NCBI GenBank assembly: GCA_029961075.1
Contig: JASBVL010000128.1
Span: forward strand, 1-64,000
DNA length: 64,000 bases
Source of the DNA: Sphaerobacter sp.
Lineage (GTDB): Bacteria > Chloroflexota > Chloroflexia > Thermomicrobiales > Thermomicrobiaceae
Reading direction: 5' to 3'
The notes beneath the pieces were generated by a model, which saw only the letters and a list, made by a program, of their open reading frames with translations, searched no databases and had not been told where the DNA came from. Made by a program: the position numbers and the translations under genes. Of this stretch, positions 7,278 to 50,489 are shown one piece after another; position 1 is the first letter of the stretch; every line of letters starts with the position of its first letter.

Positions 7278-7284
7278 GGAACGA

Positions 7285-7325
7285 CCCTCACCCCCGGCCC
7301 CTCTCCCAACGTTGGGAGAGGGGAG
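7285..7325. repeat. CCCTCTCCC-type palindromic repeat, core-only copy
   Basis: A 26-bp perfect palindrome at 7298-7323 preceded by CCCTCACCCCCGG. The same core recurs at 7942, 15228, 15274, 18364, 32131 and 50395. Confidence 0.85.
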
Positions 7326-7788: not shown

Positions 7789-7941
7789 GCTCCTCCTCCT
7801 GCTGGTTCCGCCACGCTGCCAGTCAAGAACCGATGACAGACAACAGACTCATTTTTCACCAATCTGTCGTCACCCTGTCAATCAGTGGCCATCGTCTGCT
7901 CGCGCGAGGCTGGGAACAGCGCCGGGGGAGGAACCCTTTCT

Positions 7942-7980
7942 CCCCTCTCCCAAAGTTGGGAGAGGGGCTGGGGGTGAGGG
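7942..7980. repeat. CCCTCTCCC-type palindromic repeat, core-only copy
   Basis: CCCCTCTCCCAA and TTGGGAGAGGGG around AG (7942-7967), followed by CTGGGGGTGAGGG. It lies in the 375-nt gap before the heptose cluster; nothing else clear was seen in that gap. Confidence 0.85.
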
Positions 7981-8163
7981 TCGCTCCCCCCCGCTTGTGC
8001 ATGTGCACAGTCCCGCATCGCCCAGAGGGCCGGGCGTTTGTGCAGACGCCCGATGAAACGCTCTTCACCAAATCGTTAGCGTAGGTATCGCGAAGGGTGC
8101 AGCACGGTGCGCCGCGGGATGCCTGCCGCTGTGCGCGGCTCGTTGCAGTGAGGAGCATGTCGC

Positions 8164-14269: not shown

Positions 14270-15348
14270 AGATCCTGATCTGGCACATCCACGGCAGCTA
14301 CCTCAACGCGCTCGCCCGCATCGAGCACGACTGGTACCTGCCGGTCAAGCCGGGGCGACCCGAGGGCTACGGCGGCCGCGGCGCGACCTTCGACCTGCCC
14401 GCCGCGGTCCGGGAGGTCCCGGCCGCGCGGGTGCGGGACCTGGATCTCGATCTGGTCATCTACCAGACGCCCAAGAACTGGTTCGAGGACCGCTTCGAGA
14501 TCCTGTCCGAGGCGCAGCGCCGGCTGCCGAGCGTCTACCTGGAGCACAACACGCCCCGGCCGGACGCCGTCCACACCCGCCACCCGGTCGACGACCCGAG
14601 CGTGCTGCTCGTCCACGTCACGCACTACAACCGCCTGATGTGGGACAGCGGGCGCACGCCGACGGCCGTCATCGAGCACAGCGTCGCCATCGACCCCGCG
14701 GTGCGCTACACCGGCCGCCTGCCGCGCGGCGTCGTCGTCGCCAACGGGCTCCAGCGGCGCCGGCGCATCGCCGGGTTCGACCTCTTCCTCCAGGCGCGCG
14801 AGCACGTCCCGCTCGACGCCATCGGCATGGAGACCGAGGCGTTCGGCGGCCTGGGCGATGTGCCCTATCGCGCCCTGCACCGCCGCGTCGCGGAGTACCG
14901 CTTCGTCTTCAGCCCGATGCGCTACACCAGCCTCCCCCTGGCGGTCATCGAGGCGATGACGATCGGTGCGCCGGTCGTGGCACTGGCGACCACCGCGTTG
15001 CCGACCGTGATCCAGGACGGCGTCAACGGATTCGTCTCGTGCGACCTCGACGAGCTGATCGACCGCATGCGCTTCCTGTTGGCGCACCCGGAGGAGGCGG
15101 CGCGCCTCGGCGCGGCCGCGCGCCGCACGGCCCAGGAGCGCTTCGGGCTCGACCGCTTCCGGCGCGACTGGAACGCCGCCTTCGCCCGGGTGCTCGGAGA
15201 CGCGGCCCTCACCCCGAGCGGAACCGACCCCTCGCCCAACCGTGGGAGAGGGGAGCGGTTCGGCGTTTCGTCCCCCCTCGCCCAACCGTGGGAGAGGGGG
15301 TTAGGGGGTGAGGGCGATCCCCACCTGCCGGAGAGGACGGATCCCTGA
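14257..15348 (+). CDS. Glycosyltransferase (GT-B, group 1-like) with repeat-derived C-terminus
   Basis: A 363-residue protein. The second half resembles GT-B enzymes: FSPMRYTSLPLAVIEAMTIG, then APVVALATTALP and GVNGFVSCD, the E-x7-E-like region. The first half (KILIWHIHGSYLNALARI) is less typical. The last 45 or so residues come from two tandem palindromic repeats (15207-15314) read in frame, so the ancestral stop was probably lost upstream. The stop overlaps the next start (TGATG). Acceptor unknown. Confidence 0.8.
   Translation: MRRLKILIWHIHGSYLNALARIEHDWYLPVKPGRPEGYGGRGATFDLPAAVREVPAARVRDLDLDLVIYQTPKNWFEDRFEILSEAQRRLPSVYLEHNTPRPDAVHTRHPVDDPSVLLVHVTHYNRLMWDSGRTPTAVIEHSVAIDPAVRYTGRLPRGVVVANGLQRRRRIAGFDLFLQAREHVPLDAIGMETEAFGGLGDVPYRALHRRVAEYRFVFSPMRYTSLPLAVIEAMTIGAPVVALATTALPTVIQDGVNGFVSCDLDELIDRMRFLLAHPEEAARLGAAARRTAQERFGLDRFRRDWNAAFARVLGDAALTPSGTDPSPNRGRGERFGVSSPLAQPWERGLGGEGDPHLPERTDP
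15207..15314. repeat. Two tandem CCCTCTCCC-type palindromes inside a coding region
   Basis: Core copies at 15228-15253 and 15274-15299, both the variant with CTCGCCC, each followed by a purine-rich tail. They are translated in frame as the C-terminal tail of the glycosyltransferase at 14257-15348. Confidence 0.85.
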
Positions 15349-18318: not shown

Positions 18319-18326
18319 AGTGCATT

Positions 18327-18457
18327 CCGTACTGCGTACTCCGTATTCCGTGCTCCGTGTGCTCCCCTCTCCCAAAGTTGGGAGAGGGGCCGGGGGTGAG
18401 GGGTGACTCACCACGAACGACGCAACACGCAATACGGAGTACGCAGTACGCCTGACG
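18327..18457. repeat. Heptamer-arm nested palindrome, copy 1
   Basis: Left arm 18327-18361 has five 7-nt units (CCGTACT, GCGTACT, CCGTATT, CCGTGCT, CCGTGTG). The core palindrome is at 18364-18389, and the right arm at 18409-18457 has seven inverted units. Positions 18328-18352 and 18426-18450 are reverse complements at 24 of 25 positions. Confidence 0.9.
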
Positions 18458-18477
18458 CACCCAGGATGGAGTCGCAC

Positions 18478-30952: not shown

Positions 30953-30960
30953 CCCGTCAA

Positions 30961-31352
30961 CCGTCATGCGTCATGGGTCAGACGCCATGCGTGATGCGTG
31001 GGGCGTGGTCCGTGCTCCGTGTTCCGTATTGCGTATGGCGTCTTCCGTGTTGCTCCCCTCTCCCCGGCGAGGGCGGGTACCCGCGTGCGGGGGCGGTGAG
31101 GGACCACCCGGGAGCGCCGGCCTTCCGGCCGGCTCCCGTCCCTGGTGTGGGGCGGCGCAGGCGGCGCAGGCGGCCCGGGGCTTTCAGCCCCGGGCTGACA
31201 GGCCAAAGCCGGCGAACACCGGCTGGAAGACTGCCCTTGTGGGCGAGAGTTCCGGGGTGCGATGCACCCATCACGCATCACGCTGTACGGAACACGGAAC
31301 ACGGATCACGCAATACGCCTCGCGCATGACGCGTGACGTATGGCGTATGACG
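30961..31352. repeat. Heptamer-arm nested palindrome, copy 2 (composite)
   Basis: Left arm 30961-31051 is exactly thirteen 7-nt units; right arm 31269-31352 is twelve inverted units. Between them is a C/T-rich core partner, a CCGGCC...GGCTCCCG hairpin (about 31110-31138) and the palindrome GCCCGGGGCTTTCAGCCCCG onward (31173-31195). It fills the gap after the TauE/SafE gene. Confidence 0.9.
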
Positions 31353-31363
31353 TCTGATCCCCC

Positions 31364-31977: not shown

Positions 31978-32241
31978 GCGTACTGCGTCTTGCGTACCGC
32001 GTAGTGCGTAGTGCGTGAGGCGTCATGCGTGGGGTCTGGTCCGTGTTGCGCCTTGCGTGTTGCGTACTCCGTGCTCCGTATTGGGGATTAGGTGTTGCGT
32101 CGTCCGTGATCCGTCCCCCCTCACCCCCGACCCCTCTCCCACACGGGGAGAGGGGAGGCGAACGGAACACGGAACACCCAACACGCAGTACGCAAGACGC
32201 AGGACGCATCACCGGTCACGCATGACGCATCACGCATGACG
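31978..32241. repeat. Heptamer-arm nested palindrome, copy 3 (longest arm)
   Basis: Left arm 31978-32117 has twenty 7-nt units without a register shift; the core is at 32131-32155; right arm 32165-32241 has eleven inverted units. It fills the gap between the nitroreductase and fumarase genes. Confidence 0.92.
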
Positions 32242-32257
32242 CCCGGCGCCCGACCCC

Positions 32258-49405: not shown

Positions 49406-50311
49406 ATGACTGAGCGGACGGCGCGGTACCCGGGCGTCTACGCGGCGATGGCGACGCCGCTGACGCCGGAGCTCCAGGTGGACACCGCGGGCGTGCGGCG
49501 GCTGGTGACCTCCTTGCTCGACGCGGGCATCGACGGGCTGTCGATCCTGGGCTCGACCGGGGAGTGCAACGGGCTGCCCCGGCCCCAGCGCCAGGCGCTG
49601 CTGGCCGCGGTGATGGAGGCCGCGGAGGGGCGCGGGACGATCTTCACCGGCGCGGCCGGCACGGTCGTGGACGACATCGTGGCCGACCTGAAGGCAGCGG
49701 ACGGCAGCGGCGCGGCCGGTGCCCTGGTGCCGCCCCCGTTCTACTTCCCGCTCAACACGCCGGCGGTCATCGACTACTTCCTCCACGTGGCCGAGGCGAG
49801 CCCGATCCCCATCCTGCTCTACAACATCCCCAAGCTCACCAAGGTGCCGATCGCGGTCGAGGCCGTCGCGCGGCTGGCGGAGCACCCCAACATCATCGGC
49901 ATCAAGGACAGCAGCGGGGACTTCGGCTACTTCACCGCGGTGGTGCGGGCCGTGGCCGAGCATCCCGACTTCACCGTGCTGACCGGCTCCGACGCGCTGC
50001 TCGCCAGCAGCCTCTTCGCCGGTGGGGACGGCATCATCGGCGCGACCGTCAACGTCGTGCCGGAGGCCGAGGCGGGGATCTACAAGGCCATGCGCGCGGG
50101 AGACATCGCCACCGCCCACGCGCTCCAGCGCCTGGTGGCCGAGGTCACCGACGCGTGCCGCATCGGCGTCTTCCCGGCCGCCTACAAGGCGGCGCTGGCG
50201 CTGAAGGGGCTCTGCGGGCCGCACATGACCCGGCCCATCCCCATGCTCAGCGAGGGGGAGCTGGCGGAGCTGCGCCGTCGCCTGGCCGGGCTGGGCGTGA
50301 TCGCGGCGTGA
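49406..50311 (+). CDS. DHDPS/N-acetylneuraminate lyase family aldolase
   Basis: A 301-residue TIM-barrel aldolase. The GSTGE motif (49-53), Y139 in LLYNIPK and the Schiff-base lysine K167 in IIGIKDSSGD are all in place. The family includes dihydrodipicolinate synthase and several sugar-acid aldolases. No lysine genes are nearby, so the substrate is open; the downstream M20 peptidase gives no strong clue. No strong RBS is seen. A heptamer-arm repeat follows the stop by two bases. Confidence 0.88.
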   Translation: MTERTARYPGVYAAMATPLTPELQVDTAGVRRLVTSLLDAGIDGLSILGSTGECNGLPRPQRQALLAAVMEAAEGRGTIFTGAAGTVVDDIVADLKAADGSGAAGALVPPPFYFPLNTPAVIDYFLHVAEASPIPILLYNIPKLTKVPIAVEAVARLAEHPNIIGIKDSSGDFGYFTAVVRAVAEHPDFTVLTGSDALLASSLFAGGDGIIGATVNVVPEAEAGIYKAMRAGDIATAHALQRLVAEVTDACRIGVFPAAYKAALALKGLCGPHMTRPIPMLSEGELAELRRRLAGLGVIAA

Positions 50312-50312
50312 C

Positions 50313-50477
50313 GCGTATTCCGTGTTGCGTAGTGCGTACTGCGTATTCCGTGATGCGTGCTGCGGATTTGGTGTTCCGTACCCCTCACCCCCTGCCCCTC
50401 TCCCAACTTTGGGAGAGGGGAGCACACGCAATACGCAATACGCAATACGCAGTACGGCCCACGCATGACGCATGACG
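50313..50477. repeat. Heptamer-arm nested palindrome, copy 4
   Basis: Left arm 50313-50382 has ten 7-nt units; core 50395-50420; right arm 50422-50477 has eight inverted units, including CAATACG three times. It starts two bases after the aldolase stop and ends next to the RBS of the M20 gene. Confidence 0.92.
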
Positions 50478-50489
50478 AAAGGAGATCCG

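Follow-up and report, generated by a model that had tools for sequence, protein, structure and literature searches.

Heptamer repeats have so far been reported lineage by lineage, with explanations bound to the particular sequence (G-quadruplex formation for Xanthomonas, control of translation for Beggiatoaceae). The cyanobacterial STRR heptamers are direct repeats. They share tandem 7-nt units and a multicopy nature with the Sphaerobacter elements described here, and the original prediction had ranked them as the closest analogue; this ranking did not hold, as the convergent GGGAATC heptamers of Xanthomonas (Rehm et al. 2015, PMC4692102) are closer. The Xanthomonas repeats have the consensus GGGANTN, with positions 1–4 and 6 fixed, and their convergent plus/minus pairs number 70 in one species and 75 in another (PMC4692102). 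They are intergenic, lie near the preceding ORF, are under-represented between divergent ORFs, and keep their gene context but not their length in sister species; a G-quadruplex explanation was proposed, and the authors assigned no function (PMC4692102). The Sphaerobacter elements likewise consist of 7-nt units with fixed and variable positions, form convergent intergenic pairs that are rare in divergent gaps, and keep their sites with changes in length. Unlike the Xanthomonas repeats, their arms contain no G-tracts (SCGTNNT lacks a GGG run) and show zoning; they enclose a REP-like core that is exchangeable, and they start at a stop codon. Since GCGTNNT contains no G-tracts, the proposed quadruplex explanation is inapplicable here. 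The Xanthomonas heptamers are the closest described case in a literature survey that covered few subscription papers, and an earlier description of a CGT version is possible.

Other systems resemble the Sphaerobacter elements in part. GTAG- and CGTC-tagged REP/BIME elements (Di Nocera et al. 2013, PMC3733652) are palindromic and intergenic and occur between unidirectional and convergent genes. The Sphaerobacter core alone resembles them; REP/BIME elements are 20–40 bp units without heptamer arms, and GTAG repeats flank RAYT genes in some genomes (PMC3733652), whereas the Sphaerobacter elements do not. The TAACTGA heptamers of Beggiatoaceae, cyanobacteria, and Bacteroidetes (MacGregor 2015, PMC4679880) are also intergenic 7-nt repeats with a patchy distribution across phyla, and their complement CAGTTAT fits N(C/A)GTNNT. 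They are direct repeats of an invariant unit (one inverted case in 170 sets), located mostly just upstream of start codons (PMC4679880), whereas the Sphaerobacter arms are inverted and begin at stop codons. The parS heptads of plasmid pSM19035 are bound by the ribbon-helix-helix (RHH) protein omega; these 7-bp repeats abut one another in either direct or inverted orientation, and full activity of that system takes four or more of them (PMC9499535). The heptads have a conserved middle and variable ends, and the Sphaerobacter arms similarly place four or more 7-bp units end to end; the omega sites differ in being six plasmid sites near partition genes (PMC9499535).

Four palindromic heptamer elements

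Sequence reading combined with a unit detector identified four elements with the structure (SCGTNNT)n–core–(ANNACGS)m in the window, that is, the whole 64,000-nt stretch of DNA analyzed. Their parts are as follows.

18320..18361, plus strand: element 1 left arm, 6 units, 1 nt after a stop codon
18362..18409, no strand: element 1 core, CTCCCCTCTCCCAAAGTTGGGAGAGGGGCCGGGGGTGAGGGG
18410..18458, minus strand: element 1 right arm, 7 units
30954..31051, plus strand: element 2 left arm, 14 units, starting 1 nt past the stop codon of the upstream gene
31052..31269, no strand: element 2 core, half of the CCCCTCTCCC core with nested repeats
31270..31353, minus strand: element 2 right arm, 12 units
31978..32117, plus strand: element 3 left arm, 20 units, (SCGTNNT)n
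32118..32158, no strand: element 3 core, CCCTCACCCCCGACCCCTCTCCCACACGGGGAGAGGGGAGG, REP-like hairpin
32159..32242, minus strand: element 3 right arm, 12 inverted units
50306..50382, plus strand: element 4 left arm, 11 units, the stop TGA of the upstream gene forming positions 4–6 of unit 1
50383..50422, no strand: element 4 core, CCTCACCCCCTGCCCCTCTCCCAACTTTGGGAGAGGGGAG
50423..50478, minus strand: element 4 right arm, 8 units, ending 11 nt before the next start codon

The strict 7-nt phase and inverted arms of the original prediction were borne out. The left arm of element 3 consists of 20 consecutive 7-nt units with zero indels, as had been counted, and the right arm contains 12 inverted units rather than 11. 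Exact SCGT is present in 16 of the 20 left-arm units (the exceptions being GTCTGGT, GCGCCTT, GGGGATT, and AGGTGTT), and the detector adds one weak outward unit, extending the arm to 31971. The three further copies are present at 18320–18458, 30954–31353, and 50306–50478, close to their predicted coordinates. The predicted difference from CRISPR and from ordinary short REP elements also stood: the units are 7 nt long and contiguous. CRISPR identity was rejected, as CRISPR repeats are 24–48 nt long with unique spacers. An Rfam scan of elements 2 and 3 gave sub-threshold matches only, none above the gathering score.

Abundance and distribution

A 4-unit pattern matched 373 times in the genome containing the window (G000). 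The reversed-pattern control for this count was discarded, because TGCGT is its own reverse. The first 100 of these matches collapse into about 30 elements; the genome therefore probably holds something over 100 elements, each in a gap between genes. For array statistics, 1.2 Mb of a complete sister genome (G002, replicons of 2.74 and 1.25 Mb) was used, in which a position-weight detector found 78 arrays, compared with 0 in an order-3 Markov control. In a motif-free lag test of the same 1.2 Mb, period 7 yielded 30 tandem runs, all of them intergenic and all CGT arrays, while the other periods from 4 to 13 yielded zero intergenic runs. Register breaks and unit frequencies like those of shuffled controls, which the original prediction had named as counter-evidence, were looked for and not found.

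The 4-unit pattern also matched 118 and 214 times in both other genomes of the genus. Arrays are present in 3/3 genomes of the genus and in 0/18 genomes from the other genera of the family. A few genomes more distant than the family also carry 4-unit arrays, and a looser pattern was positive in 21/301 sampled genomes of the phylum, giving a scattered distribution beyond the genus. The claimed Thermomicrobia-type host was confirmed, with Sphaerobacter sp. HOG56 (contig locus L167) as a named array-bearing relative. These data define a genus-wide family of chromosomal intergenic elements that are non-coding and palindromic, each consisting of a heptamer arm, an exchangeable core, and an inverted heptamer arm. 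The elements had no match in phages, and the plasmid search returned a single find, a 45-nt core-like match.

Similar inverted arrays occur in several phyla. A CAGT version of the unit was predicted beforehand from the shared GTNNT and was then found in one genome (G023), where inverted pairs of both CCGTAGT and CAGTCGT arms are present. An Anaerolineae contig carries a separate inverted array of another heptamer class, TCWGTNN, next to a GCGTNTT array (L156:2700–2825). Long, nearly homogeneous GCGTGAT or GCGTGGA arms were observed in Desulfococcaceae and Anaerolineae (L086:5815–5974, L118:1058–1197, and L127:7476–7999).

Unit composition, orientation, and gene context

Unit frequencies in G000 were derived from pattern matches and about 0.36 Mb of DNA chosen around arrays. 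CGT is conserved at 93/97/90%, position 7 is T in 75% of units, position 1 is G or C in 83%, and position 5 is almost never T. Positions 5–6 do vary, as had been predicted, but not freely: at least in G000, they are ordered along the arm. From the outer end to the core, CA accounts for 63% of units in the outermost fifth and 0–3% in the two inner fifths, and its mean relative position is 0.196, compared with 0.50±0.02 in unit-shuffled arms. Inward of the CA zone come GA/GG/GT, AC/AT/AG, and then CCGTGTT-like units near the core. This zoning is much weaker in G002. Adjacent units share positions 5–6 at a frequency of 0.34–0.36, compared with 0.19 for same-place units of other arms.

Neighboring opposite arrays followed the order plus then minus in 18/18 and 26/26 cases, so that all 44/44 are convergent. 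The same order was found in 15/15 pattern-fetched loci. Nearly all of these belong to other lineages, among them Acidimicrobiia, Gemmatimonadetes, Nitrospirae, Anaerolineae, and Desulfococcaceae. It is not universal, because ACGT-containing units in two genomes (G208 and G228) show the reverse order. At loci L314 and L315 of G208, an ANNACGT arm lies on the left and an ACGTNNT arm on the right, with a short palindromic core between them. The unit profile is identical in sense-5′ and sense-3′ arms, which fits the expectation for a DNA-level element.

Gene context was analyzed with a simple codon-usage gene caller in G000 DNA and G002; distant phyla were left out, the ORF picker being crude. Elements sit between a stop codon and the signals of the next gene. 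Only 2/83 lie between divergent genes (0/32 in G000 DNA and 2/51 in G002), although divergent gaps make up 31% and 28% of the intergenic bases, respectively (depletion P 9e-6 and 1.4e-5). The median distance from the element edge to the stop codon is 1 nt (n = 59), and element edges typically lie 11–22 nt ahead of start codons. The phase of the array is locked to the stop codon in 30/51 cases, with 7 expected, usually with TGA as positions 4–6 of the first unit; the stop may have seeded the array, or the array may have supplied the stop.

Turnover at orthologous sites

Alignment of copies at orthologous sites, proposed with the original prediction, revealed that arms gain and lose units, cores are replaced, and CGT is slow to change. 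At two orthologous sites compared in three species, the arms are shorter in G001 and G002, and those of G000 are long, with further inner unit types. At the element 2 site, G001 and G002 carry outer unit types only. Orthologous sites of G000 and G002 show replaced cores and differing inner units, with persistence of the outer units at element 2. Comparison of about 14 sites between G000 and G002 showed that most are occupied in both, often with an entirely different core, and that a few are occupied in one species only. Judged as MITEs, the elements have inverted arms, and no clean target-site duplication was observed among the few empty sites available. Several arm indels between G001 and G002 are exactly 14 or 42 nt, corresponding to whole units; others are not multiples of 7.

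Divergence between G001 and G002 (88% identity) was measured in six orthologous alignments containing 51 units. CGT differs at 2.6%, flanks and cores at 8.5%, positions 5–6 at 21.6%, and position 1 at 29%. Compared with positions 5–6, CGT changes about 8 times less (Fisher 2e-6), a contrast that is an upper bound because unit detection, which needs CGT in one of the two species, itself favors CGT.

Core palindromes and Y1 genes

The core is often a REP-like CCCCTCTCCC/GGGAGAGGGG hairpin. By itself it has the properties of a REP: a 20–40 bp palindrome that is multicopy, intergenic, and located between convergent or co-directional genes. As a repeat family, the CCCCTCTCCC palindrome is separate from the heptamer arms: 14/28 copies in G000 DNA and 45/74 in G002 occur without arms. 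In the window, CCCCTCTCCC-N-GGGAGAGGGG palindromes without heptamer arms, belonging to this separate REP-like family, lie at 7278–7325, 7936–7987, and 15222–15312. CGTCCCCCTCACC is often found immediately next to the core on one side, and no single tag of the GTAG/CGTC type is definable, because CGT recurs every 7 nt. A lineage-specific insert containing GGGCTCCGTC was observed in 18/74 cores of G002, 8/63 in G001 DNA, and 0/28 in G000 DNA (for example, G002:C1 near 66852–66899, locus L202).

The window also contains the remnant of a Y1/TnpA_REP transposase gene (PF01797; 45503–45679, minus strand), located beside a gyrase-like coding sequence. G001 and G002 have intact Y1 copies with long flanking inverted repeats of the GGGGCTAAAGCC..GGGCTGACA type. 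A nested copy of the repeat family flanking the Y1 transposase of the sister genomes lies within the core of element 2, at about 31160–31235.

Possible explanations

We tentatively favor a REP-like DNA element with a 7-bp register maintained by a putative sequence-specific recognizer. The element would act at the DNA level, with CGT/ACG read once per 7 bp by a putative DNA-binding protein, by analogy with the RHH type, or by a recombination enzyme. Such recognition would hold CGT and the register constant and let positions 1, 5, and 6 drift. Units would be added or removed by slippage, and exchange between copies would replace inner units and cores. More weakly, the element may act at its site as a boundary downstream of genes, either useful or simply tolerated. 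Heptad recognition is suggested by the occurrence of period 7 as the sole period, always with CGT, in the 1.2 Mb of G002, and by the second unit sharing GTNNT in the inverted pairs of G023. The slow change at CGT, the arm indels of whole units, the likeness of adjacent units, the replacement of cores and inner units, the convergent orientation, and the equal unit profile of both arms also speak for this reading, whereas the arm indels that are not multiples of 7 speak against it. A search for the omega family (PF07764) gave no match, its positive controls being equally silent. Alternatively, CGT could change slowly because units are copied from a pool that contains CGT units only.

An element driven purely by selfish spread or by slippage, somewhat doubtful taken by itself, is nearly as likely as heptad recognition. 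It would be a selfish or neutral palindromic miniature element without a cellular role, whose heptamer arms grow by replication slippage and spread via ectopic recombination or transposition, and which survives where it is harmless, downstream of genes. The observed location is that of any tolerated insertion, and the patchy distribution, the presence or absence at some orthologous sites, and the likeness of neighboring units all fit; long exact stretches common to arms of different sites exceed those in zone-matched random arms, a comparison confounded by runs of identical units. However, CGT changes less than the flanking DNA, random slippage should also yield 5-, 6-, 8-, and 9-mers, which are absent, most compared sites are common to both species despite their differing contents, and no transposase is linked. 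Mobilization by a REP-associated Y1 transposase (RAYT) is very improbable: REPs elsewhere show the same location pattern (PMC3733652), and a Y1 gene is present in 6/6 array-bearing relatives, compared with 13/35 without arrays (Fisher 0.006, ignoring kinship), but this co-occurrence is not independent of phylogeny. No heptamer array adjoins the Y1 genes examined in array-bearing genomes, the ones inspected in detail have different inverted repeats of their own on either side, and G000 has the longest arms seen although its orthologous Y1 gene is a remnant.

It is also unlikely that the elements serve at the RNA level as bidirectional 3′-end hairpins, in which transcripts from either side would fold back so that the two arms pair, either shielding the 3′ end or preventing read-through, with the constant 7-nt register allowing pairing at any offset. 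The downstream location fits, folding is strong relative to dinucleotide shuffles (z −7.6 for the whole of element 3 and −9.0 for element 4), and inverted arms outdo direct ones in folding and are somewhat stronger than arms with shuffled units (mean z −1.6 and −1.3 relative to the shuffled arms). In G000, an arm pairs slightly better with its own partner than with foreign arms (P 0.018), but this preference is not significant in G002 (P 0.29), and arm similarity within elements is not above that between elements (P 0.15 and 0.25). The arm-to-arm covariation at positions 5–6 suggested by the original prediction is, accordingly, absent or very weak. There is no G·U asymmetry between sense-5′ and sense-3′ arms; with the weak pairing preference, selection for an RNA hairpin is therefore not supported. 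The elements also lack a U-tract. An intrinsic-terminator T-run lies beside the element at 0/21 convergent and 1/20 co-directional gene ends, T-runs being rare in this genome anyway, and replacement of T-run terminators by elements was rejected as not significant.

Implications

Beyond the original prediction, the convergent order, the zoning of positions 5–6, the avoidance of divergent, promoter-only gaps, the start at the stop codon, the turnover of units and cores with slow change at CGT, the weak pairing, and the occurrence in several phyla are new. The Xanthomonas repeats share their anatomy with a unit incapable of forming a G-quadruplex, which suggests that what unites such repeats is not the sequence but the 7-nt period, convergent order, and location downstream of genes. 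A bolder and rather unlikely proposal is a cross-phylum class of intergenic elements made of convergent N(C/A)GTNNT arms with exchangeable cores, kept by a putative heptad-reading protein or enzyme that would mark the downstream ends of genes, with the Xanthomonas GGGAATC repeats as another sequence version. If so, the quadruplex explanation for the Xanthomonas repeats would be unnecessary. Sister species whose arms have different numbers of units at a given site make the origin and upkeep of the arrays testable.
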